Below, piece by piece: positions 6,034 through 64,000 of a DNA stretch of 64,000 nt (its first letter is position 1; every line of letters begins with the position of its first letter). The notes below the pieces were generated by a model, which had not been told where the DNA came from, did not search any database, and saw nothing but the letters and a program-made list of their open reading frames with translations. The DNA lies in contig JAGFNK010000061.1 in NCBI GenBank assembly GCA_025769875.1, positions 62,001 to 126,000 on the forward strand, read 5' to 3'. The translations under genes were made by a program, and so were the position numbers. Source of the DNA: Russula earlei (taxonomy: Eukaryota; Basidiomycota; Agaricomycetes; Russulales; Russulaceae).

Positions 6034-8450
6034 ATGCATCCGCGGCAATCCTCGAAAATGGTCTTCGACGATGTCGAGGAGTTTGATGCATACTACGGAG
6101 AGCAAAAAACACTGACCCCCGGCTCTTCCATACCCAGATTCAGCCCTCCGCCATCCATATTCGGATTCAGCCCTGCGTCATCCATATCCGGATCCAGCCC
6201 TGCGCCATCTTTGACAGCCTTTCCTGTTGACCTAGAGTTTGCCGAGTCCGGCGAAGAGGAGACGAGGCCGACTAAACAATCACCTACTACCTCAGGAGTC
6301 ACACCAGAATCTGCTACCGCCGTCTTTTCACCCATACCGACACAACCGCCGGAGTCAACAGCCCTCGTACTACCCGTTCCCGAACCTACTTCTATTACCG
6401 AAGGTGCGCCGGCTGCCAGATCGCACATCGTCTCTTTTTCAATTCCGGAGCCCCATGCGACCGCTCTTACAGGAAGACCTCCTGAGCCGATTCAAGAAGA
6501 TCCCGCAGTTTTGGTCCCAAATCTTCCAGAATCTTTCAGTCGTGCTGAGACTGAGCACGCTGCAGACCGGTCCCAGTCGACTCCGCCGTCAGATGGGATT
6601 GAATGGCCGGGACAGGATGAACGACAGCTGCCGACCAGGATCCCTTCTCAGCCTGAAGAGGCATTTGCCGCTCCTATGATATTCTACCCTCATAAATACA
6701 CTTTTCCGAAAACGAGTAAGAAAACAATGTCTGCTTCTCCCAATCCAGTGTCCTCCGACCCTGCTTTACCTCCGCCAACGTTGACGAATATTGCGGCCTT
6801 GACGGTTGATGGTCCAAGTAGCACCGGTATGACGACCCCACCGCAGAACCCTGTAGAACCTCGCCAAGACTGTGGTGTTGCGTTCCCTCCTAGTAGCGGG
6901 TGTGTTCGTCGTTATGTGGAGATGGCTCTTGGGCATGACATCATTCAATAGGGCCGTCGAAGGTCCAATTGCTAATCCATTTGAGTGCGAGCAGTCTTCC
7001 CGGGCGGCTTCCTCTGCAGAACGACATATCGTACCAATTCACCAGTGAGAGAAACTTTCTTGTGTGTTTTGACCCCAGGAGTGACTGTCTTACAAGAGCA
7101 ACCTCAATTGGAGCTAGTTCCAGTAATTGTGATGCAGCGTCGATCGACGTCCCCCTCCCCTCCCCTAATGAATTTGGATTTCCTATGTAGGTTGTTCCGC
7201 TGCCAATGAAATTCAATGAATTCTAACTCATTCGATCAAGTACTTCATGGCCCATTCAAATAGCATCTGTTGACGGAAGGAAAAGTAACAGGTATTCATC
7301 AGGAGAATTCTTCGGGTATGATACAGGCATGGAGTACGTGAATCAAATCCTTCTGAATGGTGTCCTCTTCATTACCGATAGCGAGTTGCGTCCACTTCTA
7401 CAAACATCCACCACTTCCCTCGAATATACACATACTCCTAATTATGGACAGACACGGCCTGTGCGATCAGGTGCAAGCGTTACATCGCAATATCAGGGTC
7501 ATATGGGAGCTGTTACAAGACTTCGATCTGCAAGCGTTGAGTGGCAGGAATTCTTGTTACCAGATGGCAGCCGCTACTTCTCACACCGTACTCTCCGCAT
7601 TGTCACTGATGTTGACTTGCGCGGCGTCGAAAGATTAGATGCAATCACAAGATTCCTTGATGAACCCAACATGGAGACTATACCTCCACCGGGGTGGGAA
7701 TTATGGCTCCGTGATGGGCATAAATCAACAATATCTTTTATCCCGTCCCAAGCCTGGATACATCACGGGAAGCGGATGGTAGTGTTCGAGTCACCAGCAC
7801 CAGATCTGGGGGAACTTATGAGCAGTGACATTGATAGTAAGTCACAAGGATTTACATGCGCCAACGTTCTGTTGATAATTATGCAGAGATGGAGTCGGAA
7901 TATCAGTACTGGTTGTTCATGGTTTCCCACCCTGTTCATGCCCCGCTTCCACCAGAGTCCGTTGCCGAAGCCATCGAGGTCCTCACGTGGTTTTATATCA
8001 GTCGGTTACCTGCTTGTTTTGGTTGTTGCCATTCATTAAGGATGTGTCAGATCGGTTGCTACCGTCGCCGCGGCTTTCCCCTCCCCCATTCAGTGAGGAG
8101 GAATGTCAAGAGTTGTTAATGCAACTTCGTTCTTTTAACCGTGAGCCTTCCGACAGTGACCTCTGGCCTCCTGACGTATATCCTCCTAGACATGTCTGTA
8201 CAGACTGTGTCACTTGTCCGCACATGTGTTGTATCTACAGTTCTTGTTCGTGTTGGTAAGTTTTGGCACGCCTACGAGCCAGCTGCCTGGTCTTATCAAG
8301 TATTGCCCTGTCAACCGGCATTTCGCTTCTCCGTGCTGCGGGCGATTTCGTTATTTCTTTCATTTGTTGTGGAACAATCACATCATCGAAATTTCTACAC
8401 AAGGACTTGTGTACGCGGTAACGCTGGTCTTGTACTCAATCGTGGATTAG
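6034..8450 (+). CDS. Chimera-family gene A: unknown N-terminus + WW-like/tail-anchor module
   Basis: First of nine copies of a shared 3' module. The N-terminus (MVFDDVEEFDAYY from 6058, or 24 nt earlier) is unrecognised and followed by a short SP-rich repeat (FSPPPS/FSPASS/SSPAPS). The module then shows SRAETEHAA, SDGIEWPGQDERQLP and EEAFAAPMIF. Introns begin at the AGCGG/gtgtg site (about 6899), after CAC CA (gtgaga), after CCTAT (gtaggt) and before the WW-like exon (gtacgt). The WW-like exon reads WQEFLLPDGSRYFSHRTL then VTDVDLR and WELWLRDG. Later exons give YWLFMVSHPVH and PPFSEEECQELL. Near the 3' end a deletion relative to copy B removes the exon that begins AWRQGR, together with its acceptor, and the frame ends in GLVYAVTLVLYSIVD. 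Function unknown; the tail may be impaired. Confidence 0.6.
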
Positions 8451-8848
8451 GGAATTCTGGTTATAAGCGATGGATTATAACTCCATCTCATGACGCTATA
8501 TCCCCGTGACTTGGCATCAGTCTTGTTCAGGCGTCGCAGGTTTCCCTGTCATCCTACTCTCATCTGTTTCTGCCGTTTCTGTAAGTCACATTACGGAGTA
8601 TAGAACATTCCACCACATACCCTTTCAATGAAGGAGGGGGGTGAGAGTACTGTGGCGAGGGAGGTACATGCTACACACCGATGTATTTTCACGGTCCCCG
8701 GTAGTTCAACGCATGGCAGGAAACGGAGAGGACGTGCTTTAATTCCCTCTGACGTGCAGTGCCTCACAGCACAATCCAAGAAGACATAGACGACGTCGTG
8801 GGCAATGGAAGTAGACAAACCATCTGAACTGCCCGGCCCTCGCCAGGC
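8451..8848. other. Intergenic
   Basis: Follows the stop of the module A gene and precedes the F-box gene. No coding or RNA gene recognised. Confidence 0.4.
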
Positions 8849-15605: not shown

Positions 15606-17530
15606 TTCGGGCCGCCAGGAGCGCGTACGGATCACTGGGTTTTCAATTTGATCCCTGAATTTTTGGCATTCCCCCCAGGGAAAAAAACAAATTCTCATCA
15701 CTCCTTTTCTACTTTGTTTCATTCAGATCAAAATTGAAAAAGTCTGAAAACTAAGAACTCCAGTCTCCATTCCATAACAGTTCCACTCTCCTTTTCCTGA
15801 TAAAAATGTGCATACATACAACATCAGATGCACACACCAAAACTGGAGCAAGTGCATAAGTGGCTGACCAACAGGCAGTGCATTATTTCTGTCAAAGTCT
15901 GATGTTCTCTCACTATCCAATTCCTTCTACATTTTATGTCTGTTTCAATCAACCTCCCTGCTCCTATTTTATCTTCTAAGTAGCATACTTGTAAACATAT
16001 AAAAAGGCTCATTATTACCTCCAAATGTAAAAAAGAGTTGTGTTCATTGTTCTCAAAAACCTCTCACATGCACACAAAAAAGCCCCTTTTTTGCTCCCTC
16101 ATTTACTCAACTTTGCATCCATGCCTTCCTCTGTCTCCACAACATGTCAATGGCCTACCAGCTGCCTTCCTAACACATGCATTCCATTGCCTGGGTATTG
16201 CATCTTTGCCACAGCCATCTAAAGTAATTAGGCACACAATGTCAAATACCCACACATGAGGTGAGTTCCCTTCCAGTTGTTTGACTGTAGTGAGTGCTTC
16301 CTTTGTCACCGACTGGGGGTGGTGTCGCTGACAAATCTGTTCACATGTGAGACAAATGTAGCTGAGTCAAGTGAGACAACAAGTTCTCACAGAGTTTGGG
16401 GATCTCAGTGACAACACAGTAAAGGCTAGTGTGTACCATGGAATGGAGAAACTATTGATAAGTCTTTGTGTCCAGAGGACTTAGCAACACAGGAGTTTTC
16501 AGACAGAGAGCTGGAAAGTTCAGAGAGGGACAGTTTCTGAGGTGTTCAACTAGTATATTCACAGGAGAACAAGACTAAGGCTTGTTCTCTTCAACTGGAC
16601 AGCTTATATACAGTCTGGTACTATATCAAATAGTGCCTGCAGGATACAGTGAGTCATGTACAAGGTGATTGGGGGCTGGGCATGAGGGAGAGTCATGGTA
16701 AACACAAGTTAACTAAATGAGTCACAAAACATGAGTCAAACATGAGGTATGTCTGGGTAGGCTATCCCCGTTGCCTGGTCCAGTCCAAAGTACCGGTTCT
16801 GTGACATCCTTCCTAGCATTGGCCATCTTGGCCTCCTTGCTTTCCCCCTATCTGGCTGCAAGTATGAATGTGGATCAGCTGGTGACATCAACAGGTATTA
16901 ATTAGTGAATATGTGACAACCAGGCAATGGAATGCACATGTTGGGAAGGCAGGCCAGTAGGCCATTGACATGTCATGGAGACAGAGAAAGGGATATGAAC
17001 ATGAAACTGAGTGAATGAGAGTGCAAAAGAGAACTTTTGTGTGCATGTGAGAGGTTTTCAAGAACAGTGAACACATTTGGAGATAATAATGAGCCTTTTT
17101 ATATGTTTACAGGTACACTTTTTGTAACCTATTTAGGAGAAAAAATAGGAGTAGGGGATTTGTAGGAGGTTTTGAGTTGGAATGGAAAAGGTATTGTATA
17201 GTGAGAGAGCATCAGACTTTGACAAAAATAATGCATTGCCTGTCAGTCTGGCTGATGTGCTTGCTCTGATTTTGGTGCATGCATCCAATAGAATCATGGA
17301 TGTGCATTTTTATTGGGGACAGGAGAGTGGAACATTTTGAATGAAGACCCGTTCTTGGTTTTTGAACTTTTTTGATTTGATTTTGATTTGAATGAAACAA
17401 AGAAAAAAAGGGGTAAAAAGAACTTATTTTCCCCTGAAAGGGAATGCCAAAAAATTCAGGGATCAAATTGATCCCGGGGACGCGCCGTGTTGCGTTCGCG
17501 CCCATCCGTATGCGCCCCTGGCGGCCCGAA
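15606..17530. mobile_element. Non-autonomous element with about 600-bp terminal inverted repeats
   Basis: The left arm (15606 to about 16198) and right arm (about 16917-17530) are imperfect inverted copies. Both outer ends carry TTCGGGCCGCCAG, followed inward by TACGGAT, CAATTTGATCCCTGAAT, GGCATTCCC, then CTTTGTTTCATTCA. Further in, both arms share CAATGCATTATTT(C/G)TGTCAAAG, AACATATAAAAAGGCTCATT and CACATGCACACAAAA. No transposase is encoded inside; the centre holds a solo LTR. No target-site duplication is obvious: the flanks are aatggcggg on the left and actgtcattg on the right. The element is AT-richer than its surroundings. It resembles a long-TIR or foldback MITE. Confidence 0.7.
16323..16806 (-). 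mobile_element. Solo LTR, probably Gypsy-type
   Basis: Read on the minus strand, the segment begins TGTCACAGAACCGGTACTTT and ends GTCAGCGACA, so it has TG...CA ends, and it contains a TATATAAG box (plus-strand position about 16611). The length of 484 bp and the absence of internal retroelement coding on either side point to a solo LTR left by recombination. The neighbouring five bases (ggtgg / tcctt) do not match, so no target duplication is seen. It sits in the middle of the long-inverted-repeat element. Confidence 0.55.
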
Positions 17531-18082
17531 ACTGTCATTGATGCCAGCAGCGGCCCTTGTATATTTATTTTAATAGTGATGGCTGCGTGGGTGAGCAATA
17601 GTCGTTCGCCCGAGAGGAAGTGTAGACAAAGGAGGAAGGGAGGAAGAGGTGGGGCAAGAATGCGAACGCAAGAGCGAACGCGTGCGGAACGAGACGGCGA
17701 CGACGCGCGCGCGCGCGATGCGCTTCGAACGGGGTGCTAACGATGCTGCTGGTATTCGGTTTTGGTAGAGTGTCTGTCTCCTTCTCAAAGACGAGGACCA
17801 AGTTATATACATGTATTCTAGGTGGTAACTAAGGAAAAGAAACGCGAGGCGAACGGGGCGCGTGTGTGGTCGAAGAACGTCACTACGAAGTATAACTACA
17901 AGAGAAAGAAAAGGAGCTAAGAAATGGAAAAGTCGGACGGATGAGAAAGGAGGCTGAACGCTGTTCGATGGCGACGAGGGCGGTGGCATTGGTCGAGGCT
18001 CTTTGACCTTTCGTTTTGGGGTTCGTCGACTTGTCGGACGAGGGGCGGGCGATGGCGTTGGCGCATGCGGTCAAGGTGGCGG

Positions 18083-18085
<3 letters not shown>

Positions 18086-18168
<83 letters not shown>
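18086..18168 (+). repeat. GT dinucleotide microsatellite
   Basis: An uninterrupted run of about 41 TG/GT units. It creates artefactual open frames of alternating Val-Cys (plus) or Thr-His (minus) that are not genes. Confidence 0.97.
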
Positions 18169-18169
<1 letters not shown>

Positions 18170-18292
18170 GACGACGCGCGCGTTCTGGTATGGCGATTCC
18201 GATCCGATTCACGCACTCACAGCCGCAAGGGTCATCTTACAGTATGACTGACGATCAGTTGAAGGGTTAGTCACAGCGCATCAAGCTGGTGA

Positions 18293-18550
18293 ACACCTCT
18301 GCACAGTGCCTTCCCGGAGAGCTCAGCGCACATCGATCGTGGCGCAAACATGAAAGCACGCCAGTGGCACTATCAGACTCCTTTGTATCTCGCGGCGGGA
18401 ACTGGACACATCGGAGTTATCGATCTGCCACTTAAACGTGATGCAGACGTAGGTCTGTTGAATGATGAGGCGAAGACCATGTCAACTGTCGCTGGAAAGA
18501 GGACATCTGAAGGAAGCATGATGCACGCACGAAGCACGATGTATGTATGA
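18293..18550 (+). pseudogene. Ankyrin-repeat fragment
   Basis: The frame from 18350 gives QTPLYLAAGTGHIGVIDLPL then KRDADVGLLND, which fits one ankyrin repeat (TPLHLAA..GH...V..LL..GADV). Nothing upstream or downstream extends it into a repeat array, and it ends at a stop at 18548-18550. It is an isolated relic in repeat-rich DNA. Confidence 0.55.
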
Positions 18551-18905
18551 GGTTCGTCGAATCGTCGTAGACTCCATAGTCTCTCAGCTGGCATTTGGAC
18601 TGAGCAACAAAGCCGACCAATCCAATTGTAGCGGCGCACCAATTATCGTAAGGCGGTGGTGCTTGCTGTGCCTCTTGGCTAGCAGCCACCCAAAGATGGT
18701 TGAAATTCAGAGCGCTCGGCACATGTGCTCCTCCTGCCTTGCACTCCTCCCTCTTTGCATAAGATTCGAGCAATAGGGAGTCTCTCTTCATCCGCCACAC
18801 CACACATCCTCCCTTTTTGCACAGCCTCAATCCTGTGCTCGCTTTGAAGTGAAAAGTGGGAGCGACAGAGCGCCTGGAAAACAACAACTATCCTCAGTCG
18901 CTACC

Positions 18906-20980
18906 ATGTCAGTGAAGAATTTACAGCGTACGCAGCATGGGATTTTAATGCTCTCAAATATGACATACTCACTTTCCGCTGTAGCAAATGTCGACAGAAC
19001 GTTAATCAAGGTCGCCGAGTGTGTCAGGCTCTTCGAGAGCATCTACAATGAGATGCATGCTTCTACGGACATAACACAGGAAGATGGGCTTGAAAGAGAT
19101 CTCAAGACGCAGTTAAAGAAGCTACAACGACTCAGAAATGAGATCAAGACGTTGGTGGCCAGCAATGACATCAAGGATAAGGCGGCACTTCTTGAGAACC
19201 TGGGGCTCATCAAGACGGTACGTATTCCTTATTTTATCTCTTTCCACTAGACGCCCCTATATCGTGAACTTTGGCCATTATCTCGCTTGGGGAAGCAGCC
19301 CGCGGTTGCGCGTCCCGGGCGGTCCTGAAATCTCTTTTGCATGCCGTTACTTGTCACAACTCCCTGCTAATTCGGCCCTCTATGCAGCAAATCACGAAGT
19401 TCAAAGCGTACCTTTTTAAAAAGGAAGATATCATATATTTTGGCCCTAGAGTGTATGAGAAACTTGCACTGGAGGAGTGGTCAAGAGAGTGCCTAGATAC
19501 ACTCCAATATCAAGTTGACGCAGAAGATCTATGGATAGACATGTTACTATATGAAGAGGAGGGCAAAACGGGTGTTCTAGAGAAGAACCAGAACAAGATA
19601 GAAGAGGTCAAACGAAGGATTGAGCGTCAAAAAGGGGTCATGTCCCGTTTAGAGCCCATATCCATACTGATAACCCAAAACATACTTTCGACGGTGCAGA
19701 TCGGAACACTGAAAGACCATCTGGACTACTTCATGAATCACGCGGTCGCTGCGCGCTTCTCTTTAGCGGAAGCTGCTAGTCTAACATCTGCAGAACAGGA
19801 CGGTTATGACGATGAGGACGAGAACATTTTTGGAGACTTTCCCCTCGACGAGGAAGAATGTAGTTCGTTAATAGCGGAGTGTTATAACAGTCGAGGTCAA
19901 CGCCACGGCCATAAAGCCATTCTACGATATCTATCGAGTTTCACCGTACGTGTTTTGTATTGCTTGCCTATTATCATGTGTTGGATACTTATATTTTTAC
20001 TCAAAAGGGGACGACAGTCACCCTCCTTACCAAGAACGCCAAAACATTTGAGGGTGTCATCGGTTCTACTACCAAGAAGCATGGCCAGAAACAAGGCGTT
20101 ATCCTTCGTGATGCAAAGGATCTGACCGTTCCTGGCGCTCCTGTGCAAACTCAGATTTTCATCGCGTCAACAGACATCGACTCCTGGTCTTTCCCCGCAG
20201 ATCCTAACATGTCTGGTCTGAGGACATCCACTACCAATTCGCGCGCAGACTCCAAGGAAAGTTCATTGCTTCAGACCCTCAGACTTCTCGCCGTATGTGA
20301 TATCTATGAAAGCTCACGACGCTTTCGCTCATACGCTGATTTGATCAGGGGACTATAATTACCCTCACTACCAAGGCTGCGAAACGCTACGAGGGCACCG
20401 TGGAATATTCCTCAGAAAACGGGAATATGGCGGGGCTTACTCTTCGCGACGTCAAGGAGCTTTCTACTCCTGGTGTCCCACTCAAGGGCCAAGTGTTCAT
20501 TCCTGTAACTGATATCGACACTTGGTCTTCCGGTCCCGAAGATGCTAAGGTTCGAAAAGGGGCGTGTATGTGTTACAAGACCTTTATACGCCTTTATCCA
20601 ATCTAAGCACCTGTCTTCCAGCTTCCAAGACTGAGGCGGATGCTGATATCAGTCAGAAGTCTCCGCACCGCAGATCTGATCTCTATACTTGGCAAGCTAA
20701 CTTGCCGCCGCCTGCAATCGCATCCGCAGGACCCTCACATGGGCAGCGTACTAACGATGTCACATTCGGTGCTGGCGCTTCGAGACGTGTAGAATGGAAT
20801 GACTTCTTTGCCGATAGAAAACCGTCCCCCAAAGAGGCTAGTTTTTCCAAGGATCTGTTTGCTAATATGCAGGGCCGATTTGGCGCGGCTTTAGCGGAAC
20901 GTAATATGACCGGAACACCCATTTGGCATGAGACTGTGCAGGTACGTCCGAAAGCCAATTCCGCAGTCCGATGGCATTGA
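18906..20980 (+). CDS. Chimera of NOT3/CNOT3 N-terminus and two ataxin-2 Sm-like repeats
   Basis: Six exons join in frame: 18906-18927, 18985-19217, 19388-19945, 20008-20292, 20349-20565, 20622-20980 (about 557 residues). Residues 1-270 follow the N-terminal coiled coil of NOT3/NOT5 of the CCR4-NOT deadenylase: MSVKNLQ, VDRTLIKVAECVRLFESIYN, KKLQRLRNEIKTLVASND, IKDKAALLENLGLI, ending in an acidic DDEDENIFGDF stretch. Residues 272-366 and 367-439 are two copies of the ataxin-2/Pbp1 Sm-like domain (GTTVTLLTKNAKTFEGVIG, GVILRDAKDL; GTIITLTTKAAKRYEGTVE, GLTLRDVKEL), each followed by STDIDSW/VTDIDTWSS. The last exon holds a weak LsmAD remnant (DADISQ, DLYTWQ, WNDFF). NOT and ataxin-2 proteins both act on mRNA in the cytoplasm. 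The gene stops just after it meets module B. Confidence 0.72.
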
Positions 20981-49316: not shown

Positions 49317-49818
49317 GTGTGCTGTTCGAAATATCTGGTCACACAATGCGATGATAAATAACGCTGACTCCGATTCCTCTGGCTGCTGTTATCCTCGGCT
49401 TCCGGGTGGTATCCATCACACTCCTTGGTATCGCCCTTGTTTTAAGTGTTACTGATTTCTCTGACGGCCTTCATCTTTATCGTTTCACAATTTACAGATA
49501 CAAGACGTGTATTGACAAACTTATTATATACCATCACATAGAAGGACTGGTAGGTGCCATCGGAAAGATGTGTTTATAGCCAGTCCGACTCTGACATATA
49601 CATGATACAGGATCGTATGTCCGGCTCACGTGATTCTGCCGCTCGCGGGAATGTTCCCACAGGGACGTGTCGATTACCGATCATGTCGACGTGGGAATGA
49701 ATCCAAATGAAGTGCTGAGATTGAAACCTGACGGCTCGTAGAGACAACTAATCTCGAATCGCATCGCCTACCACTTATCGGTGTCCTCGTCTATTCCCAC
49801 CCACCCTCGTTCTCCTCA

Positions 49819-52800
49819 ATGTCTTCTTTTCCGGTGTCTGTGAAGGCCACGACTAGCAGCGACGCAGCTTCGTTCGCCTATCCATCCCAATCCTCCAACC
49901 CTGTAACCACCAAGCCTGGCCTCAATGTCGTTTTCCTTGACTGTCATACAGGCAGTCTCATCTCTTTCAAGACTTTTGACATTCTTTCCGACTCCTCCGC
50001 ATGGGATGATTTCGCGTCCGCGATCGAGTCTGACACACTTTTCCCTAACACATATGTCTTGATTGCCACCCAGCAAGGCCGTGCTGGAGTGGTGTCGAAT
50101 ATTACCGATCGTGGACGCCGTGCGATCCATCTCTTGGGAGGATTCGCGTTCCAGAATGTTGATTGCGCAAAGATCACCGCCTGGGCCTTTGTTGGCCAGC
50201 ATGGCGCAGGCATCGGTACCTCCCTCGATAGCTTTTCATTCGACGCACGCTCGGCAGAGCTTTCTTCCATCGAGCTCACCGATATGCCGCCATCTTGTAG
50301 AACCCACCTCATTAGCGCTACTTCAAATGGCACTGGATATATCAGCGCACGGATTCTTTACGATAACGTGGAGTTTGTAGGATCCGGCTCTAATGGGCTG
50401 AACGTCGTCGTCATCAACCCGGCTTCGGCCACAGTGCAACACGTTTCATCATTCGGCTCCTCTCCTTCAGACGCAAATGCGTTTGCTCAGCTCGTAGAAT
50501 CCAAACCAGCAAATTGGATTTTCGCGGTAGCTTTTAAAGCATTCTCCCCCTCCCTTCTCTCTCCGCCCATCAAACGTACGTTGGAAAGTATCGGCAGCAA
50601 AGTCGTGTCAGGCCCTGTCTCAAATGGAATGTCATGGGTGGTGATTGGATCACGCACTTTCGATGATACGGGGGTCAGTGAAGTATCATCCCAAGGGCCA
50701 AGCAGCCAAGCGAACTATTACTTCGATGCCGCTGCAGAACGTGAAGGACAAGCTAGCTTTATACTGGAGTGCCGAGGTGCCTACAATGTTAGTCTCGATA
50801 TCGTTGTTGATGGATGTGTCTTGGAGTCGTTCAAGGCTGGCCCAAACTACAACCTTCGCATCGCGGCCATATCCCCTTATACAGGGATTGTTTGTGGTCA
50901 CCAAGCCTACGATGTCAGGGAACTGAGTGATCAGAAATCACTCACCGAATTCGTCGAACAGGTTCGGGTCTCTTAATTCGCATTATTCATCCACTGACAT
51001 CCTTACAAGATCCCTCTCGGTTACTTGACGGCGATTGTCTATCAGCCACCTAATGGATTCACTTTTCCCGCTGCGCTTAGCAAGCTCCTTTCTCTCATGA
51101 GTCAATTACCAATCGAACTTGTTCTTCCCGGAACTATGTATGGGCTGCTTTACCGCAAGGGTTCTGGCCCGGCAAGGTCATTCTATCGAAACATCAGCCA
51201 GTCCGCAGACGGTTGGAGTGGTGCGGACACGTTCGCTCTAACGTGCCGCGTTTTCTTTACTCGTCGCCCTCCGATCTTACGGATCGAAGCATTTTCTGCT
51301 GGCTTTTTTGCGGGAAATCGTGCATATGTTACAATCGACATGCGCACTGTCGAGTTCAGCTGGGATAACCGCGGACTCAACGTCGTCGCGTTCAATGGAT
51401 ATGGGACGGTTGTGAACATCGCATCGTTCGATACCTGGGCTGAACAGACCGCAGCCGATCGTTTCGCTTCCTTGATCGAGGGACTGCCTGCGGGCACAGG
51501 AGTGGCCGTCGTCATAGTCGACGAAGGCACATATCGCCTAAATGATCGTGCAATTCAGGCCATAAAGTCACTTGGAGGCTCCAAGTTGGGCAGTGTAGCC
51601 TTTCGGGGCTCATACGCTTTGATTGGATGCAAAGGAAGGTCTGCAGGCTGCGTCGCGGAAGCCTTCAGTCCCTCTGGGTCATTTGGTGCTCTCGTGAAAT
51701 CATACACTCCAGGCGCTGAGCCGGGCCCATCTAACAAAGGCAACTGGCTTTCCATCTCGACATACTCGAGCTCACATAATTATCACATCCTTCTTGATGG
51801 CGTCGAGATAACGCCAAATACAACATTTAAGCCAGGCATACAGCTCCTTGCGGTCGGCCAACAATATCCAGTGGTGGATGAGGTGTTGGACTCGGATGAT
51901 AATGTCGAGGGACTGATCGAGGCCATGCGTGAACACGCACAAACGGTATATGCCATGTATATTCCTGGATCGTGCTCAGGTACACGAGCCGCTACTAGTC
52001 TTGGAAGCTTCCTTGGCTCCACGAAGATGAACGATCTTAACGGCAGAGGCAGGCTTGTAGTGGGTATACCGGGTGGTGGTTCAGGAAGTGCATTGGAACA
52101 CATGTTTGTGAAGGAATTTATCTCGATCTCGTTCTGGACTGGGTCTATGCCTTGGAAACTGTCTGGCCCTCCTACTGCTTCAGGTGATATACCAGAACCT
52201 ACCATCACCGTCTCGTCATCTAGGCCGGCGCAACCGCCGAAGGGATCCACTGAGGGGGGGTTCGATCCTTTTGTACTGCCCACCGCTCAACCTACTGCCG
52301 AAGGATTATCGGTCTCCCCCGTGTCAGATAAAGTTCTTGTATCACCTCCGTATTCGGTGTTCCCTTCCGCTCTTGCAAGGAAACCCTCCAAGCCAAATCC
52401 AGCAACATCGGTCGATCCCGGCCCCCCTGTCTCATCGCCAGAATCCCTCGGTCTTGGCGAGATGGAGCACACTGCAGACGATGCCCTGCCAGATTGGCAA
52501 TCCGATGGTATTGAATGGCATGGACAGGATCAGCACCAGCTGCCAATTGAGATATTGTCCCACTTTGAGGAAGCATTTGTGGCTCCTATGATATTCCACC
52601 CTGATAAATACGTTTACAAGAGAACGTGTAGGAAACCCATGTCTGCTGGGTCCAACCTAGTGTCCACCGATCATACATTATCGACTCCAATGGCTACAGA
52701 GTCTCTTCCGATAAAGGTTGACAATGCAAACGGCCCTTGTATGACAACTGCAAAGAACTCTACACAATCTCGCCAGGAAGGTGTCGTTGCGCTCCCTGCC

Positions 52801-54452
52801 AGTAGCGGGTGTGTTTCTTGCAATCTTGAGATGATACACGTTTATGACATCACCTATAAGGGATGCGTCACATCCATTTGATAGTCAATTCGAGGCCGTG
52901 CAACCTGTCCTAGAAGCTCGTCCCGTGGGTCAATTCGATATTCCAAACCTCCAGTGAGACAAGGTTTCCTGCTTTACGAGTACCACAATGACGGCGTTAA
53001 CAGAGCAGCCTCAATTGGAACCAGTTCCAGCATCTTTTGGGATTGTGCAACAATCGATATCCCCCTCCCGAGCAGTGAGGTTGGATTCGCTATGTAAGTC
53101 GCTCCTCTACCAATGAAGCGCAACTCGTTCAATTGCGTACCTCAAGGCCTGTTCAAACAGCACCTTCAGACTGCAGTGCCACAGGGAAAGGTAATGGATA
53201 TCTATCTGGCGAGTTCATGGGGGATGACACAAGTACAGAGTACGTGAATCAAGTCTTACGAGTGGTGTCTTTCTCATTATTACTAGCGAATCTCATGTAT
53301 TTCTACACCCGCCTACAAGTTCCCTCGAAATTACGCCCAATTACGAACAAACCCAGCGTGCCCAATCAGACACCATCTTTGCCTCGCAAAATGAGGGTCC
53401 TGTTGGACCCGTGCCAATTACTCGGTTCCGAGCAAGCGTTGAGTGGCAAGAATATTTGTTACCAGATGGCACCCGCTACTTTTCGAATCCTACTCTCAAC
53501 GTTGTAACGGATGTTGATCTGCGCGACATTGGAAAACTAAATGCAATCACAAGGTTTCTTAATGGACAAGATGCGGAGATTCTGAACCCACCAGAGTGGG
53601 AATTATGGCTCCGTAATGGGAATGAGTCAACGACAGAGACAGCATTTAGTCCACTTATGGCCTGGGTACACCACGGATCACGGATGGCGGTGTTCGCACG
53701 TCCTGCATTAGATCCAGGGAATCCTATAAGCAACAATGTTGATAGTAAGTTGCGGTGGATCACTCAGCTTATTCTCACATTGATCATTCTGTAGAGATAG
53801 AATCGGAATATCAATACTGGTCGTTCGTCATGTCCCATCCTGTTCATGTCATGCTGCCATCAGAATCTGTTCACGAAGCGATCAATGTCCTCACGTGGTT
53901 CTATACCAGTCTGTTTACTTGCTAATCTGTTTCTCCCGTTCATCCATCTTGTGCCAGACCGGCTGCAACAGTCACCACACCCTTCCGCGCCGCCGTTTAG
54001 TCAGGAGGAATGTCAAGAGTTGTTGACGCAACTTCGTTCTTCTAGCGGTGAGCCCTCTCACAGCGATCTGGCCTCTTGACATATGTCCTACCCAGATATG
54101 TCTACCCTAGCTGTTGTTCGCACACGGGTTGTATCTTCAGTACTTGTTCGCGTTGGTAGGTTTTGGTTCATCTTCGAGTCACATCTCGTCGTCTTATTTA
54201 GATTGTTTAGTTGCATGGAGACAGGGTAGACAAGGGGACGGCGCGACATTTCAAGATCCCAGGCAAAGTAACAATGACCCCTCAGCTGGGATTTCACCTC
54301 CCCTTACTAGGGGTGAGTTCATCATTTCTTTCGTTTGTTCTGGTCTCCTTAACTTTTCCTGGAACGATCACATCGTCAAAGTCTCAGCACGGGAGGTGGC
54401 CTATGTAGTACTAGTGGCATTGGGCTTTGTATTAGGGCGCCTGCTTGCTTGA
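49819..54452 (+). CDS. Chimera-family gene G: five ILEI-like repeats + WW-like/tail-anchor module
   Basis: Exon 1 (49819-50961) and exon 2 (51010 onward) are near-identical to the ILEI-caspase gene, with the same 48-nt intron position, up to SISFWTG at about 52141. There the transmembrane and caspase parts are replaced by the module: TITVSSSRPAQPPKGSTEGG, SDGIEWHGQDQHQLP, EEAFVAPMIF. Exon 2 ends at 52808 (AGCGG/gtgtgt; intron 52809-52860). I followed all later junctions, and the frame stays open through FDIPNL, AASIGTSSSIFWDCATID, YLSGEFMGDDTSTE, the WW-like exon WQEYLLPDGTRYFSNPTL, YWSFVMSHPVHVMLPSE, PPFSQEECQELLTQLRSS and the tail VAYVVLVALGFVLGRLLA (stop at 54452). The product would carry all ILEI units and a C-terminal membrane tail but no protease. 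Confidence 0.78.
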
Positions 54453-56530
54453 TCGTGGGTTAGGAGTGTGACCTGGTGATAATGCTGCCTCGGGGCGTCA
54501 TTATCGTTAGTGCCCCACTGCTATTCATCAGATACAGATACCATGACACCGATGACATTTCAGGTGTTGCGGGTTCCCTCGCCACGTCTCTGCCTCTACT
54601 TAACGCACCTTCCCCTTTGCATGCCGCGATTATGTGTGCCGATGCCAACAAGGTTCTAGGCTAGCAATATTTCAACAGGCCACTAGTATTGGAGAAACTC
54701 AGAGATCGCTCGACGCATGCACTGCCACTACTGACAAGGAGCCACCATGTGCTTGTGGCACCAACACAACACATACATACGAATGCCCCTCGTAGTGCTG
54801 GCTGGGGACAACCCGTCCTATCGAGAGACGAAGACGAGGGGGGGGCGGAGGAGAGGGTGCGAACTCGAAAGAAGGGAGAAGGGGATAGGGGCAGCCCGAG
54901 TAAGGGATAGTAAGTGGTCTCGAGGAGCGGGGAACACGAACGTGCCAATGCATGCAACTCCAGTGCAAGCCAGGAACCATCCGAACACGACCGCAGGATG
55001 ACGCGCGCACGCACGCAGAAGTTAAACCGCAACCACCACTGGCAGGTCTAGGAAAGGGCAGCGCGCCGTGAATGCCGAGGATCGCTCATTTTCATGACCC
55101 AAGCACAATGAGACGCTGACGACACAATCAAAGGAGCGATGTTTTGCAAAGTAAGAAGGTTCCGTACTCAGGATGTACTCTAATGAAAAAAATAAAGTAG
55201 TTTACTCACTTATGATGTGCTCAACGTTGATGCGCTCTCAACGTGGTTCGCGAACTCGCTAAAGGGTCCTGCATGATCATTTGTTGCCTTCATCTCACGC
55301 TACCAAGGTGATCTGACCCACAGTTCAAAAGGCCCAACATTACAAGAGTTCCGCTACTTCAAGCTTTAGTGCTTCATTGTGCCCCCGACCGCTCAAAGTG
55401 TGGGCTAAACCCTCGATCCGCTTCAAACACTGGGTTGGCTTTAGTTATATCCGATCCAGAAGCTGCGTCCGAATAGTTCCTGTGCTAGATATACCAAATG
55501 AGGGCATGGTCATTTGGATCCGGTTGCCTTCTGAATCCCAGGATTAAGTGCAGGGGAACCAGATCACCCGTGGAGCAGCAACGGATGCACTACCAGGATA
55601 TTTTGGCCTCGGTGCTCGGGGTCTCCTGCCTCCTCGCATTGCATTGCATCGCCTCCTCTCGACGAGAACGCGAAGCCAGTTGGGGACTGGCGGGAGTTGA
55701 TATCATTGGCCCAATCTGCACCAACAAAACACCGTCAAAACATATACGGTCAGGCGAGGGCACTACCTCAAGCCCGAGCGGCGTAATCATCTCACAACAC
55801 GCTACAAATCCCGGTCGTGGGTAATCCATCGACGGCCGAAGGCGCATTTTCCATGCAGAAATCCTTGTCCCTGGCATTGAGCATCACGTAGAGCAGCGTG
55901 GGAGTGCCACAGATGATCATACGCGCTCATGACGGCGGCACATCGCTCTCGTTCTCCTTATATTATGGCCACGGAATCTGTCTGAAGCGCATTGAGCGTT
56001 GAAATGTAGTGTACAGCCTGAGGCCATCAATGGCCAAGACAGAGGCGGCTAAATTGTGAGGCAGTGCCCCACCAGGCTCCGGCGTGCACGCCGCAATCTT
56101 GCATTGACGTCAAACTCGGACGGACGGCTACGTGGATGTGTAGAACGTCCGTCCGCGTGAGGCAGACCACTAAGGACCGTATGGGAAAGGCTGTTCATGA
56201 AGCACAAATCGCCGGAGCGAAGTTCCAGGTGGCGCGTCGTAAGCACGAGAAGTGGGGGAGGGTCACCCGAGAGCGCCAGTGTCACAAGTATGTCACGTCA
56301 CCGCATTGATCACCACGTGGGCAGCCTGATGTTTGCCTGCTGACGGATGTCTGCCCAGTGCTGAGCTGAATATTCCAGTCGTTCAAAGTGGTGACACCCC
56401 CTGATATAAAAATCCGGCCCCGATTGTTCAATCCTCAAGTCAATTCCCATCCCCCAGCGTTCCCCTACACCATTTCACCAGCAATAGCTAACGCCCACCA
56501 CTTCGTGGTCTCGGATCATTCGTTTACAGG
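54453..56530. other. Spacer with degraded repeat copies
   Basis: No intact gene. Bases 54690-54760 share the tggcaccactgacaa/gccaccatg word set found behind the caspase gene and module H. Bases 55240-55960 are a third copy of the spacer with the minus-strand P-loop-like relic. Bases 56010-56130 match the duplicated unit at 61298-61516. A purine-rich run lies at 54820-54900. Confidence 0.45.
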
Positions 56531-59500
56531 ATGTCTAAACCACAATCCCAGAGATTCTCCCTTCGTGCATTGTTGAAGCGAAGGCCGACTCGTCTCAGTG
56601 ATTCCATGTCGCCACAGCCGCTCCCCAAATCGTCAAACGACCCTCTCAGACTCCACCCAAATACCCTTTCCCCAGAGTATGCCATGTCAAATCTCGTTCT
56701 CGTAGAGGATCATCGACTGATCTTAGCGGTTTCACAAGGCTGCTGCCGCTCTCCTTGTCGTCAACCAAGTCTCCCACTCCTATACATCCCCTTTCCCTTT
56801 CCTTACAGTATGCCTGCCGACTCCCGTAGATGACCTTCGGCTGATCTTAGCGGTTTCACAAGGCCGCCGTCAACCGAGTCTCTCCCACTCTCCCCAATAA
56901 TCCCTACCCAAGAGTATGCCTGCCGGATTCTGTAGATGACCATCGACTGATATTAGCAGTTTAACAAGGTGGCCGTCAACCGAGTCTCTTACACTCTCAA
57001 TTACGCCTATTCAAGAGTACGCCTGTCGAATTCTGTAAACGACCATCGACTGATTTTAGCCTTTTTACAAGGATTCCGTTGCCCGAGTATCTCAGCGTCC
57101 CCCCAATTGACATACCAAAGAGTATGGCCGCCGAATCCCGTAGATGGCAATTGACTGATCTTATCTGTTTCAAAAGGCCGCTGTCGCCCTCAAGTCGTCA
57201 ACCGAGTCTCCCACACTCTCCCAAATTTCCATTGTCACAAGGTATGGCTGCCAAATTCCGTAGACGACCATCGACTGATCTTTAAGGGTCACAAGGCTGT
57301 CACCGATCTCCCCCTCATCACACCCGAGTCTTTCCCCTGCCGTACGTATGCCTGCCGAATCGCGTAGATGACCATCAACTTGATCTTCGAGGATTCACTC
57401 ACGGGCCGCCACCGTTCTTCCCCTCATCAACCGAGTCTTCCACACCCTCCCTTGTCATAACTGTATGCCTGCCGAATCGCGTAGATGATCATCAACTGAT
57501 CTTCGAGGTTTCACAAGGCCGCCGTCAACCGAGTCTCTCCCACTCTCCCCAATTACCCTTACCCAAGAGTATGCCTGCAGGATCCTGTGGATGATCATCG
57601 ACTAATTTAGCCTTTTCCCCAGGCTGCCGTTGTCCGAGTCTCTCGGAGACTCCCCAATCGACCTTGCCAAAGAGTATGGCTGCCGAATCCCATAGATGAC
57701 CATCGACTGATCTTATGTGTTTCACAACACTGCTATCCCCATTCAGATCGTCAACCGAGTCTCTCAGGCTCTACCCAAATGCCCGTGGCCTAGAGCTTGC
57801 CATGCCGAGTCCCGTGCATGAACTCCCTCCCCGTAAAGCTGCTGAATCCATGCCAGAACCGTTGATACCGTCGACACTGTCTGGCTCTCCTACTTCTGCT
57901 CCGAGTGATACAGCAGATCCTCCAATCGCTGTCCTGTCGTCCAGGCTGGCACAACTACCGGAGGAATCCTCTGAGAGGGGGTTCAATCCTTTTTTACAGC
58001 CCACTGCCGAACCCACTGCCCAAGAACTCCCAATCTCCCCCGAGCCAGATATAGTCCCTGTATCGCCTCCGCCTCCGGTGTCTAATTCTGCTCTTACAAG
58101 GAAACATTCTGAACCAGACCCAGTCTTGTCGGTCGACCCCACACCCCATGTCTCAGATCCTCCAGAATCCTTCAGTCTCGGCGAGATACAGCACGCCGCA
58201 GACGATGACGGCATTGAATGGCATGGACAGGATAAGCAACGGCTGCCGATCGAGATATCATCTCGGCCAGAGGCCTTTGAGGCTCCTATGATGTTCCCCC
58301 CTCATAAATACGTTATCGAGAGAACGAGTAGGAACCTCGTGTCTACTTGTTCCAATCTAGCATCCACTGTATCTGCTCCGATGGCCACGGAGGCTCCCCC
58401 AATAAAGGGTGACAATGTAAGTAGTGCTGGTACGACAACTTCGAAGAACTCTATAGAATCTCGCCAGGGAGGTGTCGTCGCGCTCCCTGCCGGTAGCGGG
58501 TGTGTTTCTTGTAATCTTGGAGATGATGTTTGTTTATGACATCATCTAGCGTGCAACCTGTCCCAGAACCTCGCCCTGTAGAACAATTCAATATCCCAAT
58601 CCCCCAGTGAGACAAGTATTCCTGCTCTACGAGTTCCACCATGACAACTTTAACAGAGCAGTCTCAATTGGAACTAGTTCCAGCAACTTTTGGGACGGCG
58701 CCATAATCGATATACCCCTCCCACCCCCCAGTGAGGTTGGATTTCCTACGTAAGTTGCTCCTCTACCAATGAAATGCAACTCGTTCAATTGTGTAATCGA
58801 AGGCTTGTTCAAACAACGCCTTCAGGCCTCAGTTCCACGGGGAAAAATGGATATTTATCTAGCGAGTTCATCGGGTATGACACAGGCGCAGAGTACGTGA
58901 ACCGAATCGTACAAGTGGTGTCTTCCTCATTATCACTAGCGACTCGCACGCATATCCACAACCGTCTACAAGTTCCCTCGAAATTACTTCTAACTACGAA
59001 CAAGTCCAGCATACGCAATCAGTCACTAACTTTGCCTCGCAAAATGAGGATCCTATTGGACCCTTGCCAATTCCTCGGTTCCGAGCCGCAAGCGCTGAGT
59101 GGCGAGAATACTTGTTACCAGATGGCACCCGCTACTTCTCGAACCTTACTCTCAAGATTACTACGGATGTTGATCTGCGCGATATTGAAAGATTAGACGC
59201 AGTCACAAGGTTTCTTAATGGTCGAGGTGTGGAGATTCTAACCCCACCAGAGTGGGAATTATGGCTCCGTAATGGGAGTGAGTCAACGACAGAATTTACT
59301 CCGCTGATGGCCTGGGTACACCACGGATCACGGATGGTACAATCTTGGTCGGATATGTCGACCCCGGCTGGACCAGCAAAGCCCATATTGGACTTCGTCT
59401 TCGCGCGTCCTGCATCAGATTCAAGGCATCCTATAGGCAAAGATGTTGATAGTAAATCTCGATGGACCACAGGTTATTCTCGTATTAATTATTTTCTGCA

Positions 59501-60168
59501 GAGATAGAATCGGAACATCAATACTGGTCGTTCGTGATGGCCCATCCTGTTCATATCACGCTCCCAGCAGAATCTGTTCACGAAGCGATCAATGTCCTCA
59601 CGTGGTTTCATACCAGTCCGTTATTTACTTTTTAATCTCTCTAGTGTTCATTAACCTCGTGTCAGGCCAGCCGCAACAGTCGCCACACCCTTCCCCGCCG
59701 CCGTTTAGTCAGGAGGAATGTCAAGAGTGGTTGACCCAGCTTCGTACTTTTAGCCGTGAGCCTTCAAGTTCACCACAGCGATCTGGCCTCTTGACATACG
59801 TCCTATCCAGACATGTCTACCCCAGCTGTGGTTCGCACACGTGTCGTATCTTCAGTGCTTTTTCGCATTGGTAAGTTTTGGCCCATCTTCGAGCAACTAC
59901 TCGTAGTCTTATCGAGGATTATTTAGTCGCATGGAGACGGGGTCGACGACGGGACTGCGCGACATTTCAAGATCCTCCCGAAAATAACAATGTTCCTTCA
60001 GCTGACATTTCGCTTCCTCGTACTAGGGGGGAGTTCACCATCTCTTTCGTTTGTTCTGGTCTCCCTAACTTTTCCTGGAGCGATCACATCGTCAAAGTCT
60101 CAGCACGGGAGGTGGCCTACGTAGTACTACTGATCGTGTGCTTTTTATTAGGGCGCCTGCTTGCGTGA
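56531..60168 (+). CDS. Chimera-family gene H: repeat-expanded N-terminus + WW-like/tail-anchor module
   Basis: The start MSKPQSQRFSLRALLKRR at 56531 resembles the MSK start of gene I. The next 1.2 kb is a tandem array of about 105-bp units, each with an intron-like part; how many are spliced into the mRNA is unknown. From about 57750 one exon runs SSTESLRLYPNARGLELAMP, HELPPRKAAESMPEP, a Ser/Pro linker, GIEWHGQDKQRLPIEISS, EAFEAPMMF to the AGCGG-type donor (about 58499). Later junctions stay in frame: AVSIGTSSSNFWDGAIID, GYLSSEFIGYDTGAE, the WW-like exon WREYLLPDGTRYFSNLTL, IERLDAVTRFLNGRG, WELWLRNGSEST, YWSFVMAHPVHITLPAES, PPFSQEECQEWLTQLRTF and the tail VAYVVLLIVCFLLGRLLA. An in-frame insertion of about 57 nt (QSWSDMSTPAGPAKPILDF) lies in the WW-like exon. 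Function unknown. Confidence 0.65.
56690..57740 (+). repeat. Ten imperfect tandem units of about 105 bp with intron-like halves
   Basis: The core GTAGATGACCATCGACTGAT, followed by CTTAGCGGTTTCACAAG, occurs with changes near 56703, 56827, 56933, 57037, 57140, 57261, 57364, 57481, 57586 and 57692. Each core begins GTAGA/GTAGAT, has a CTGAT branch-like word and ends CAAG, so it looks like a 37-40 nt intron. Between cores lie 60-80 nt (GCCGTCAACCGAGTCTCTCC...ATGCCTGCCGAATCC) that resemble the flanking exons RLHPNTLSPEYAM and RLYPNARGLELAM. The array looks like serial duplication of one exon-intron unit. Confidence 0.8.
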
Positions 60169-61721
60169 TCGTGGGTTAGGGGTGCGACCTGGTCATAATA
60201 TCGCGTCAGGCCATCATTATCAATAATGCCCCACTGCTATTCATCAGATACCATGACACGGATGACGTTTCCAGTGTTGCGGGTTTTCTCGCCACCCTCC
60301 TCTTCGTCTCTACTTGACCCACCTCTTCACCTTGGCATGCCGCGGCCATGTACCCCGATGACCCACAAGGTTCTAGGCAAACAACCATTTCAAGGGCGCG
60401 AGTTTTGGAGATTGTTCGATGCGTACACTGGCACTACTGGCAACTAGCCACCGCGCACTAGCCACCACGCACTTGTGGCACCGAGATAGGAAGTGATACA
60501 ACTATGCAATCATTACCATCTTCCGAATGATGCGTTGCTTACGACCATCGCCAGCCCACAGTTCTCTCTCCGGATGTCCGATGGTTCCAAACAGTGAGAA
60601 CTGATGGCTCGAGCGAGGGTAAACGTAACCGACGTCTCCTTCCGTTTGGCATGTAGATACTTATAGTTGCAATAACATGGTAATCCATCATTCCGTCATC
60701 GACGAATCGGAACCAAGCCAAGTTACGGAACAATGAGCACATGCAGGACGAACGAACGGCATCGTCACCCAAAGCGGCTGCGAAGATCTGGATTGGTCAG
60801 TGCGAAGTCGCAAAGGTGGCACAGAAGTATAGTGAGATTGACATGCACGGGTCAGTTCAGAAGTGTGGCGCCAAAGTCGAGGGTGGGTGTGCGCCCCACT
60901 TGGGCTGCACCGCGCACGGCCAGGGGTTCGTTGTTCGTTGGCAGGCAAGGAAAGACACACACAGACACCGACTCAGCAATGGAAACACTGTCGTCGGATT
61001 AGTTTCACCTCGCTTTGGCGTCAAGCACTGAAACGGAGAGAGCTTGCTTGAACTGGAAGGTGAGGCGAGGACACTACCCCAAGCCCGAGCGGCGTGATCA
61101 TCTCGCAACATGCTACCCATGCCGGTCGTGGGCAACCCACTGATGAAAGGCGCATTTCCCATTGGGAAGACCTTGTCCCTGACATACATTGAGCATCGCG
61201 CAGAGCAGCGTGGGAGTGCCACAGATCGTATGCTCTCATGACGGCGACTCATTCCCCATTATATTTTGGCTATGGAACGTGTCTGAAAAGCGAATTGAGT
61301 GTGGGATGCACCATACAGCCCGACGGCGAGGTCATGACGAAAACGGATGAATTGTGTGGCAGTGCCCCGGGCTCCGCCGTGCAATGCACGCGAGCTGGCA
61401 TTGGCATAGGACTGCTAAGTGTGGGATGCAGTGTACAGCCTGAGATCATGACGAAAACGGATGAATTGTGTGGCAGTGCCCCGGGCTCGCCGTGCAGTGC
61501 ACGCGAGCTGGCATTGGCGTCAAACTCTATATGGATGTGTGGAACGTCCGCGTGAAGCAGACACCTAAGGGCCGAGGGGAAGAAGTCAGTGTGTAACGAG
61601 TGGCGTTGCACTGCATTGGGCCTTTGTCCTGCTTCGCGTCACGTGCAACAACCGAACATTCAAAAAGTTTGATACTTCCGAAGTTCGTGGTCTGGAATTA
61701 TTGGTTTACAATATTTACAGT
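60169..61721. other. Spacer before gene I with relic copies
   Basis: No intact gene. Bases 60420-60490 repeat the tggcactactggcaactagccacc word set. Bases 61050-61255 match 55760-55930 (caagcccgagcggcgt, atgccggtcgtgggcaa, cttgtccctgacat), the fourth partial copy of the minus-strand P-loop-like relic. The promoter of gene I should lie in the last few hundred bases. Confidence 0.45.
61298..61516 (+). repeat. 120-bp tandem duplication
   Basis: AGTGTGGGATGCA...CAGCC, ATGACGAAAACGGATGAATT and GTGTGGCAGTGCCCCGGGCT recur 120 bp apart (unit 1 from 61298, unit 2 from 61418), both ending in GCGAGCTGGCATTGGC. A more diverged third copy is at 56010-56130. No coding role is evident. Confidence 0.85.
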
Positions 61722-64000
61722 ATGTCCAAGAACCGACCTTCCAAAACCCACTCAGTACTGAGTAGGAGGCCGGTGTCCCCCCGGTACAACTTGTTGGGGT
61801 CCCCTGGGCGCACACCCCCCTCCCTACATCGCGTCCTGCCAGTGGATGGCCGAAAGCTTTTCATGCCGAATCGCACAAACGAACCCCTGTCCGTGAAGAT
61901 TGCTGAATCCCTGCCAGAGCTGTCGATGCTGCCCAACTTGTCTAGCCTTCCTGTCGCTGCTCCAGGTGATACACCAGAAACTCCCATCACCGTCTCATCA
62001 TCCAGGCCGGCGCAACCACCGGAGGGATCCTCTGAAGGGGGATTCAACACTTTTGTACAGTCCACCGCTGAACCCACTGTCGAAGAATTCTCAACCTCCC
62101 CCGAGATAGATAAAGTCCTTGTATCACCTCTGCCTCCGGTAGCCCCTTCCGCTCTTGCAAGGAACCCCTCTGAGCCAGGTCTAGTAATGTCGGTCGATCC
62201 CGCACCCCATGTCTCACGTCCTCTAGAACCCCTCAGCCCTGGCGAGATAGAGCACATTGCAGACGATGTTCTGCCAAATCGGCAATCCGACGGCATTGAA
62301 TGGCATGAACAGGATCAGCACCAGCTGCCACTCGAGATATTGTCCCAGCCTGAGGAAGCATTTGTGAATCCTATGATATTCCAACCTGATAAATACGTTT
62401 ACAAGAGAACGCGTAGGAAGCCCGTGTCTGCTTGTCCCAATCCGGTGTCCACGGACCATACTTTATCGTCTGCAATGGCTACGGGGTCTCTGCCAATAAA
62501 GGTTGACAATGCAAGTAGCGCTGGTTCGACAACTGCAAAGAACTCTACACAATCTCGCCAGGAAGGTGTCGTTGCGCTCCCTGCCAGTAGCGGGTGTGTT
62601 TCTTGCAGTCTAATGATGATGCTTGCTTATGACATCATCTATAAGGGATGTGTCGAATCCAATTGATAGTGAATTCGAGGGTGTGCAAGCTGTCCCAGAA
62701 CCTCACCCTGTAGAACAATTTAATGTTCCAATCCCCCAGTGAGACAGGTTTTCTTTCTCTGCGAGTTCCGTTGTGACGGCGTTAACAGAGCAGCCTCGAT
62801 TGGAACCAGTTCGAGCAACTTTTGGGACGGTGCCATAATCGATATTCCCCTTCCATCCCCCAGCGAGGTTAGATTCCCTATGTAGGTTGCTCCTCCATCA
62901 ATGAGGTGCAACTCGTTCAATTGTGTACTTCAAGGCCTGTTCAAGCAGCACCTTCAGATTGCAGTGCCACAAGGGAAAGTAATAGATATTTATCTGGCGA
63001 GTTCATCGGGTATGACACAGGTACAGAGTACGTGAATCAAATCTTACATGTGGTGTCCTTCTCACCATTACTAGCGAATTTCTACAACCGTCTACAAGTT
63101 CCCTCGAAAACACTTCTAATTACGACCAAGCCCAGCCTGCTCAATCAGGCACTACCTTTGCCTCGCAAAATGAGGATCCTATTGGTCCTGTGCCAATTCG
63201 TCGGCGCCGAAATGCAAGCGTTGAGTGGCGAGAATACTTGTTACCAGATGGCACCCGCTACTTCTCGAACCTTACTCTCAACATTGTTACGGACGTTGAT
63301 CTGCGCGACATTGAAAGATTGGACATAGTCACAAGATTTTTCAATGGTCGAGATGTGGAGATTCTTATACCACCAGAGTGGGAATTATGGCTCCGTAATG
63401 GGAGTGAGTCAACGACGGAATTTACTCCGCTGATGGCCTGGGTACACCACGGATCACGGATGGTGGTGTTCGCGCGTCCTGGATCAGATCCAAGGCATCC
63501 TATGAGCAAAGATGTTGATAGTAAGTGTCGGTGGACCACAGCTTATTCTTGTATTGATTATTCTGCAGAGATAGAGTCGGAGCATCAATACTGGTCGTTC
63601 GTCATGTCCCATCCTGTTCATGTCATGCTGCCATCGGAGTCTGTTGACGAAGCGATCAACGTCCTCACGTGGTTCCATACCAGTCCGTCATTTTTAAAAA
63701 AATCTGTCTTCCACCGTTCATTTCATTCACCTCGTGCCAGGCCAACCGCAACAATCGCCACACCCTTCCCCGCCCCCGTTTAGTCAGGAGGAATGTCAAG
63801 AGTGGCTGACCCAACTTCGTTCTTTTAGCCGTGAGCCTTTACCACAGCGATCTAGCCTCTTGACATACGTCCTATCCAGACATGTCTACCCCAGCTGTTG
63901 TTCGCACACGTGTCGTATCTTCAGTCCTTGTTCGCATTTGTAAGTTTTGCCCCATCTTCGAGCAACTACTCTTAGTCTTATCGAGGATTGTTTAGTTGCA
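61722..64000 (+). CDS. Chimera-family gene I: unknown N-terminus + module, 3' end outside window
   Basis: The start MSKNRPSKTHSVLSRRPV at 61722 is preferred over an ATG 21 nt upstream because gene H also starts MSK. The N-terminus (LLGSPGRTPPSLHRVLPVDG) is unrecognised. The linker is close to gene G (TITVSSSRPAQPPEGSSEGG, EPLSPGEIEHIADDVLPNRQ, SDGIEWHEQDQHQLP, EEAFVNPMIF). Introns fall at 62594-62645, from 62739, after CCTAT (gtaggt, about 62880), ACAGA/gtacgt, GATA/gtaag, ACCA/gtccgt and AGCC/gtgag, and the frame holds throughout: AASIGTSSSNFWDGAIID, RYLSGEFIGYDTGTE, WW-like WREYLLPDGTRYFSNLTL, DIVTRFFNGRD, WELWLRNGSEST, DKIESEHQYWSFVMSHPVH, PPFSQEECQEWLTQLRSF, STPAVVRTRVVSSVLVRI. The window ends just before the tail exon. 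Confidence 0.7.

Follow-up and report, generated by a model that had tools for sequence, protein, structure and literature searches.

A 64,000-nucleotide stretch of the Russula earlei genome (the window: positions 62001-126000 of contig C61, JAGFNK010000061.1, within a 66.6-Mb assembly) contains a tandem array of a duplicated multi-exon module, with duplication at the DNA level, and several copies are headed by the 5' parts of unrelated genes. The most probable reading, which we hold with considerable confidence, is that this is an array of a lineage-expanded membrane-protein gene whose disordered, breakage-tolerant exon 1 captures 5' gene pieces, few of which are kept. The long exon 1 would tolerate breakage. 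In the duplicated copies, various 5' pieces of neighbouring or unlinked genes, introns included, are joined inside it, and the donor's start and first domain thereby precede the module's eight downstream exons and hydrophobic tail. An earlier note, made from the letters alone, had proposed one module attached to many unrelated N-termini, a view that our genome searches extend, since heads of Rsp5 type and of VAP occur outside the window.

In a self-BLAST of the window the module appears eight times at full length and once as a 3' fragment (Table 1); of the nine same-strand copies previously described, the strand and the common module stand, with one copy reduced to a fragment. Copy I runs past the window and ends at ~64237 in the adjoining contig stretch. 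The middle of copy E, used as a genome query, yields 40 exon matches, nine of them on C61 and the others on C75, C76, C9 and C37 and further on C413, C1295, C706, C1301 and C1167 (copies outside the window are named after their contigs). C413, C1295, C1301 and C706 align with long stretches of C61, mostly at 96-99%, and therefore look like the second haplotype. The module consists of nine exons and eight introns of ~50 nt with identical phases (alignments of 12, later 18 rows), in agreement with the shared intron positions from which DNA-level duplication had been deduced. At the aligned splice sites of 17 full-length copies, C76 included, donors are GT in 136/136 and acceptors AG in 131/136, the five departures being introns 3 and 8 of A, intron 1 of B and of H (in H with AG one base further) and intron 5 of C37. 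For exon 4, an alternative acceptor was dropped because its phase did not fit, and the donor GTACGT was used instead. Thirteen of the 17 copies are open through the module (B scored only from mid exon 1 onward), the exceptions being D, C9b, C9d2 and C37. The splicing derived for C75a equals that of database model P0001 over their common part, apart from exon 5 (one residue in P0001 versus 18).

The ancestral gene persists at C76; its exon 1 is long and disordered, its core is conserved and it has several transmembrane (TM) segments. Besides it there are 16 full-length copies, each ending after about one TM segment. A module-profile search scored at least 21 proteins among 8,000 candidates (E down to 4e-248), and the matches listed include relatives in Lactarius, Multifurca, other Russula, Phlebopus and Fomitopsis. 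In its relatives, as in the C76 gene, the N-terminus is a long linker and there are several TM segments (windows exceeding the KD threshold number five in each of P0004 and P0022 and six in P0009). With this Agaricomycete multi-TM family (P0004, P0005, P0009, P0018, P0022) the array copies share the exons and the conserved core, with introns conserved within R. earlei, and P0005 also has the native N-terminus; the array copies differ in being cut after about one TM segment and in that many are foreign-headed. P0004 and P0005 are probably transcript-derived, since both are long open frames on 3.3-kb contigs. The C-terminal hydrophobic tail of the earlier note finds support, KD19 exceeding 1.6 near the C-terminal end in 10 of the 12 truncated copies with an open frame (A at 1.52 and E at 1.53 fall below). 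Since most open copies have such a segment, the head would probably face the cytosol at a membrane. The proposed WW-like domain fares worse. Pfam and PDB searches return no family for the module, the sole match being P0001, through its captured WW; as for the WW profile (PF00397) in module exon 5, copy E matches no family at E 0.1, and none of the 17 genome-wide WW matches lies on C61. Because neither Pfam nor PDB yields a match, "WW-like" stays a resemblance. A low-confidence structure model of the Lactarius relative P0009 places three short strands at the site, and at a mean pLDDT of 53.8 no fold is identified.

Foreign 5' ends are found on at least nine copies (B, C, D, E and G, two with C2-WW and two with VAP MSP heads), all placeable joins fall in exon 1, and the donor parents are found in the organism's own genome, either unlinked or next door. 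The NOT3-ataxin-2, eIF4G, homeodomain and ILEI assignments of the earlier note for B, C/D, E and G are confirmed by Pfam, genomic parents or both. In B, the Not3 homology begins at about the ATG (18903) and matches C24 at 68-77% DNA identity in three pieces; SM-ATX (15.6 bits) and eIF_4G1 (14.2 bits) score under the Pfam cut-offs, the parents of both being present in the genome. The eIF4G piece of C ends with, and includes, YDRDFLLQF, which we take to be the eIF4E-binding motif, altered in D to YDRELLSQF. The head of E matches C49 at 71-75% DNA identity in two pieces, with homology from 49 nt before the ATG, and the ILEI repeats score 77.8-87.2 bits. The heads of C75a and C75b are the C2 and WW region of an adjoining C2-WW-HECT gene, presumably of Rsp5/NEDD4 type (HECT and name by our own reading), which aligns with the captured copy at 77.6% over 1,305 nt, introns inside. 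C9a, C9b and the stretch before C9d2 hold VAP MSP sequence related to C77, missed by Pfam in the C9a piece and recognised before C9d2; C9c follows a sequence 70-87% protein-alike to C63 and RasGEF-like by our own reading only. The homeodomain, MSP and C2 domains are retained, contrary to the claim that donors are cut before their core domain.

Of the three N-termini previously called unknown, those of H (E 4e-35) and I (E 9e-20) align with the native N-terminus of C76, and that of A does so from residue 58 (E 1e-19; all in a comparison limited to three sequences). H and I are thus not chimeras. The first 57 residues of A have no other match in the genome and, like the heads of C9d1 and C37, no assigned parent. 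Exon 9 of A is shortened by a deletion and its hydrophobic tail is weak. In H, part of intron 1 and its acceptor are deleted (58499-58550), with a TAG at the deletion joint and the phase unchanged, both haplotypes being open. Short diverged direct repeats cluster before module H (56620-57825).

Parent stretches align across introns (for eIF4G, over 2.65 kb in pieces, introns inside), so RNA was not the intermediate and capture took place at the DNA level. Capture is recurrent and partly recent, as the earlier note had supposed: in the module tree, sister modules carry different heads, namely eIF4G, eIF4G and homeodomain in {C,D,E}, ILEI, native and native in {G,H,I}, and native-like and NOT3 plus ataxin-2 in {A,B} (the D+E grouping inside the first trio is unsupported, 0.13), and recent events are represented by the 96.0% patch from C162 and by a 91.1% stretch common to C and C104. 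For G, the stretch 40885-44562 recurs at 48548-52143 (88.7%), and the bases that follow are a G/H/I-type module; this duplicated block of 3.6-3.7 kb, which begins within module E and takes in the front of gene F, ends in exon 1 of such a module, gene F being the parent of G's head. C61 is the one contig with gene F entire; on C1295 it lies in pieces, and its allele there has four one-base insertions, all past the part common with G, and a further 10-base indel between alleles lies outside the exons compared; its caspase-like part has no Pfam match. The joins may have arisen by ectopic duplication or template-switching repair. In our own, post hoc grouping, five of seven joints are in frame (E, G, C/D, C75 and C9a; out of frame are B and C9c), a count that is no more than suggestive. 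In Drosophila yakuba, tandem duplication reportedly fuses a gene's 5' part to a second gene; here, unlike there, a single recipient is reused with at least six different heads.

Judged by their sequence, at least two hybrid genes, E and G, are still intact in both nuclei. G is open and indel-free in C61 and C1301, as is E in both of its haplotypes, and coding sequence contains 0 haplotype indels in 2,624 bases of E and 0 in 4,187 of G (0/6,811), against 8/4,055 plus 11/3,926, or 19 indels in 7,981 bases, outside the coding parts of E, F and G in the same alignments; at that rate ~16 would be expected by our arithmetic. Between haplotypes, pN/pS (nonsynonymous over synonymous polymorphism) is 0.55 in E (17 nonsynonymous, 10 synonymous) and 0.36 in G (9 and 8; 1,016 codons compared), both from small counts. 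Ka/Ks (nonsynonymous over synonymous divergence) in exons 2-8 is 0.28-0.58, below 1 in 14/14 module pairs, which we chose from 78 possible among 13 open copies. For the ILEI parts of F and G it is 0.31 and 0.30, and for the WW and linker exon of C75a versus C75b 0.57 (interval 0.44-0.78).

Several observations weigh against the retention of these chimeras. The introns of E and G are also indel-free (0/923 bases, ~2 expected), so the indel contrast may be partly local. Donor-versus-parent Ka/Ks (0.36-0.67, eight comparisons) contains the parent's own constraint; two rows for E homeodomain exon 1 were excluded (wrong frame, 37 codons). The first intron of E is GC-AG in both haplotypes, and the ILEI intron of G at 50962-51009 is one of two candidates, with a weak donor (GTTCGG). 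B, C and D are frame-damaged: the donor frame of B hits a stop at the joint, and that of C has lost 10 nt near 27243 relative to the C413 allele, with a second break near 25860 seen by eye. The captured eIF4G of C versus D has a Ka/Ks of 0.88 (interval 0.62-1.46), near-free evolution; the joint of C9c breaks the frame, C9b has internal stops, and A differs from its C413 allele by one 1-nt indel over the part covered by C413. Among the ten database models of R. earlei seen, seven begin within the module, namely P0019 (A), P0011 (B), P0010 (C), P0003 (E), P0006 (I), P0002 (C9a) and P0015 (C75b), and a query with the E head and linker finds P0003 and no homeodomain-bearing R. earlei model among the 18 proteins listed. 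The damage in B, C and D, the eIF4G Ka/Ks of C versus D and the seven module-start models favour neutral birth and death, in which chimeras arise steadily in a duplicating region, only the module is functional and no foreign head is selected; it fits as well that donors include neighbours (F by G, the C2-WW-HECT gene by C75a/b). We give this explanation substantial weight, somewhat short of an even chance; it has to contend with E and G, open across donor and module and indel-free in both haplotypes, with a Ka/Ks of about 0.3 in the common ILEI part, and with the Ka/Ks of the C75a/C75b exon. For most heads, neutral turnover is weighted close to a selected role.

Capture by a mobile element of the Helitron or Pack-MULE type, which gathered gene pieces and brought them to the array, appears unlikely. 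The genome has at least 75 Helitron_like_N matches; ten of these lie within open frames 1,402-1,415 aa long, which hints at recent Helitron activity. The way in which pieces of several unlinked genes come together in a single unit, as in B, D and E, also resembles multi-gene capture. On the other haplotype (C413:1-21226), sequence beyond copy C differs and includes an eIF4G piece at 17204-18627 and, by our own reading, a transposase-like open reading frame (ORF) near 4280-5290. However, 0/75 Helitron matches fall on C61, C75, C9, C76 or C37, although no search was made for element ends. Compared with gene-fragment capture by Helitrons and Pack-MULEs as described in PMC4289320, the likeness is that pieces of several genes, introns included, are joined; the difference is that no Helitron domain occurs on module contigs and that exon 1 of a single gene family is the recipient every time. 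A claim that module D was lost from the alternative haplotype was dropped, as contig ends do not permit it.

That each donor and its module are two distinct genes lying side by side and wrongly read as one, the outcome the earlier note had named as fatal, is very improbable: the module-start models and the stops at the joints of B and C9c speak for it, but single open exons cross the joint in C (ORF 27439-28221), E (38929-40034), G (51010-52808), C75a, C75b and C9a, and two models read through: P0001, which has the WW head, and P0023, which spans the ILEI head and the module as far as exon 3.

Table 1. Features of the array and its captured sequences (positions within the window)
Feature	Position	Strand	Description
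Module A	6355-8372	+	self-BLAST
Copy A	6034-8438	+	ATG 6034, exon 1 to 6899, then eight exons
B donor 1	18903-19761	+	Not3 N-terminal fragment; Pfam Not3 76.8 bits
B donor 2	19901-20819	+	ataxin-2 SM/LsmAD fragment; 70.5% over 932 nt to C13
B candidate intron	20942-20993	+	52 nt, GT-AG; would join donor and module in frame
Module B	20954-22811	+	self-BLAST
Module B, gene structure	20954-22881	+	linker frameshift in both haplotypes; remaining exon 1 and exons 2-9 open
C donor	24941-27590	+	eIF4G N-terminal part; 67.7-91.1% DNA identity to C104, introns included
Module C	27634-30072	+	self-BLAST
Module C, gene structure	27634-29797	+	nine exons, open
D donor	31440-34498	+	eIF4G N-terminal part; 72-81% to C104, one 54-nt stretch 91%
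D patch	33864-34188	+	325 bp from a different gene on C162; 96.0% identity; inside eIF4G fragment, unmatched in C
Module D	34539-36955	+	self-BLAST
Module D, gene structure	34539-36716	+	one surplus base in exon 2 shifts frame
E donor	38532-39432	+	5' part of homeodomain gene; Pfam Homeodomain 64.6 bits; ATG 38581
E patch	39157-39282	+	126 bp from C134; 81.0% identity; within homeodomain-gene fragment
Module E	39562-41968	+	self-BLAST
Chimeric gene E	38581-41676	+	ten exons, 874 aa predicted; open, indel-free in C61 and C1295
Gene F	42154-45654	+	ILEI repeats (Pfam), then TM and caspase-like part (own reading)
Stray eIF4G fragment	45880-46058	+	no module; 72% to C104
Truncated module (F of the earlier note)	48548-49577	+	self-BLAST; 3' exons only; left edge of duplicated block
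Module G	52147-54746	+	self-BLAST
Chimeric gene G	49819-54452	+	ILEI fused to linker in one exon, ~52143/52147; eight more module exons; ~1,393 aa
Module H	57865-60452	+	self-BLAST
Module H, gene structure	57865-60168	+	native N-terminus; frame open on both C61 and C706, with a single 3-nt indel
Module I	61939-64000+	+	self-BLAST
Module I, gene structure	61720-64000 (to ~64237 outside)	+	native-type N-terminus; both haplotypes open over compared part

Elsewhere in the window, a direct repeat (73-1436 and 3811-5163, 66.6%) overlaps amino-acid permease ORFs, and an inverted repeat occupies 15643-16194 and 16920-17471 (74% over 578 nt).

Returning to the capture of 5' pieces by exon 1, most chimeras would decay and a few be retained. 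Those retained may hold an interaction domain at the cytosolic membrane face and, more tentatively, might there compete with, or sample, the partners of the parent protein. Competition with the parent or a decoy role could fit the choice of interaction domains, the earlier note having considered decoys or dominant negatives; survivorship equally accounts for the N-terminal bias of the donors, which is expected without function because a working fusion needs the donor's start and the recipient's end. More specifically, a fungal counterpart of integrated decoys, in which a membrane-anchored family collects the first domains of parasite-used hubs and shows them as baits or competitors, with rapid bait turnover, is a speculative reading to which we assign little probability. 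The hubs in question would be eIF4G with its eIF4E-binding motif, NOT3, ataxin-2, VAP and Rsp5. Intracellular parasites use eIF4G, NOT3, ataxin-2 and Rsp5 as hubs, and VAP (Scs2) has roles in tombusvirus replication. The likeness to plant NLR proteins with integrated decoy domains, as presented in PMC5067614, is that a fixed family independently takes in diverse host domains, and such repeated integration is found here in sister modules with different heads; the differences are that here there is no NLR and no known parasite target, the N-terminus is replaced and the host is a fungus. The locus did not appear among the papers listed on chimeric families, integrated decoys, tombusvirus factors, Helitron capture, Russulaceae expansion or tail-anchored chimeras; one listed paper mentions Russula earlei by name.

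Chimeric genes are usually studied singly, whereas here one recipient has taken at least six heads of several ages. A single genome holds the parents, the alternative haplotypes and both intact and decaying products, and because these coexist, the rates, the mechanism and the selection on new chimeras become directly testable. The array also raises the question of whether a fungus may make a decoy-like system from its own regulators.

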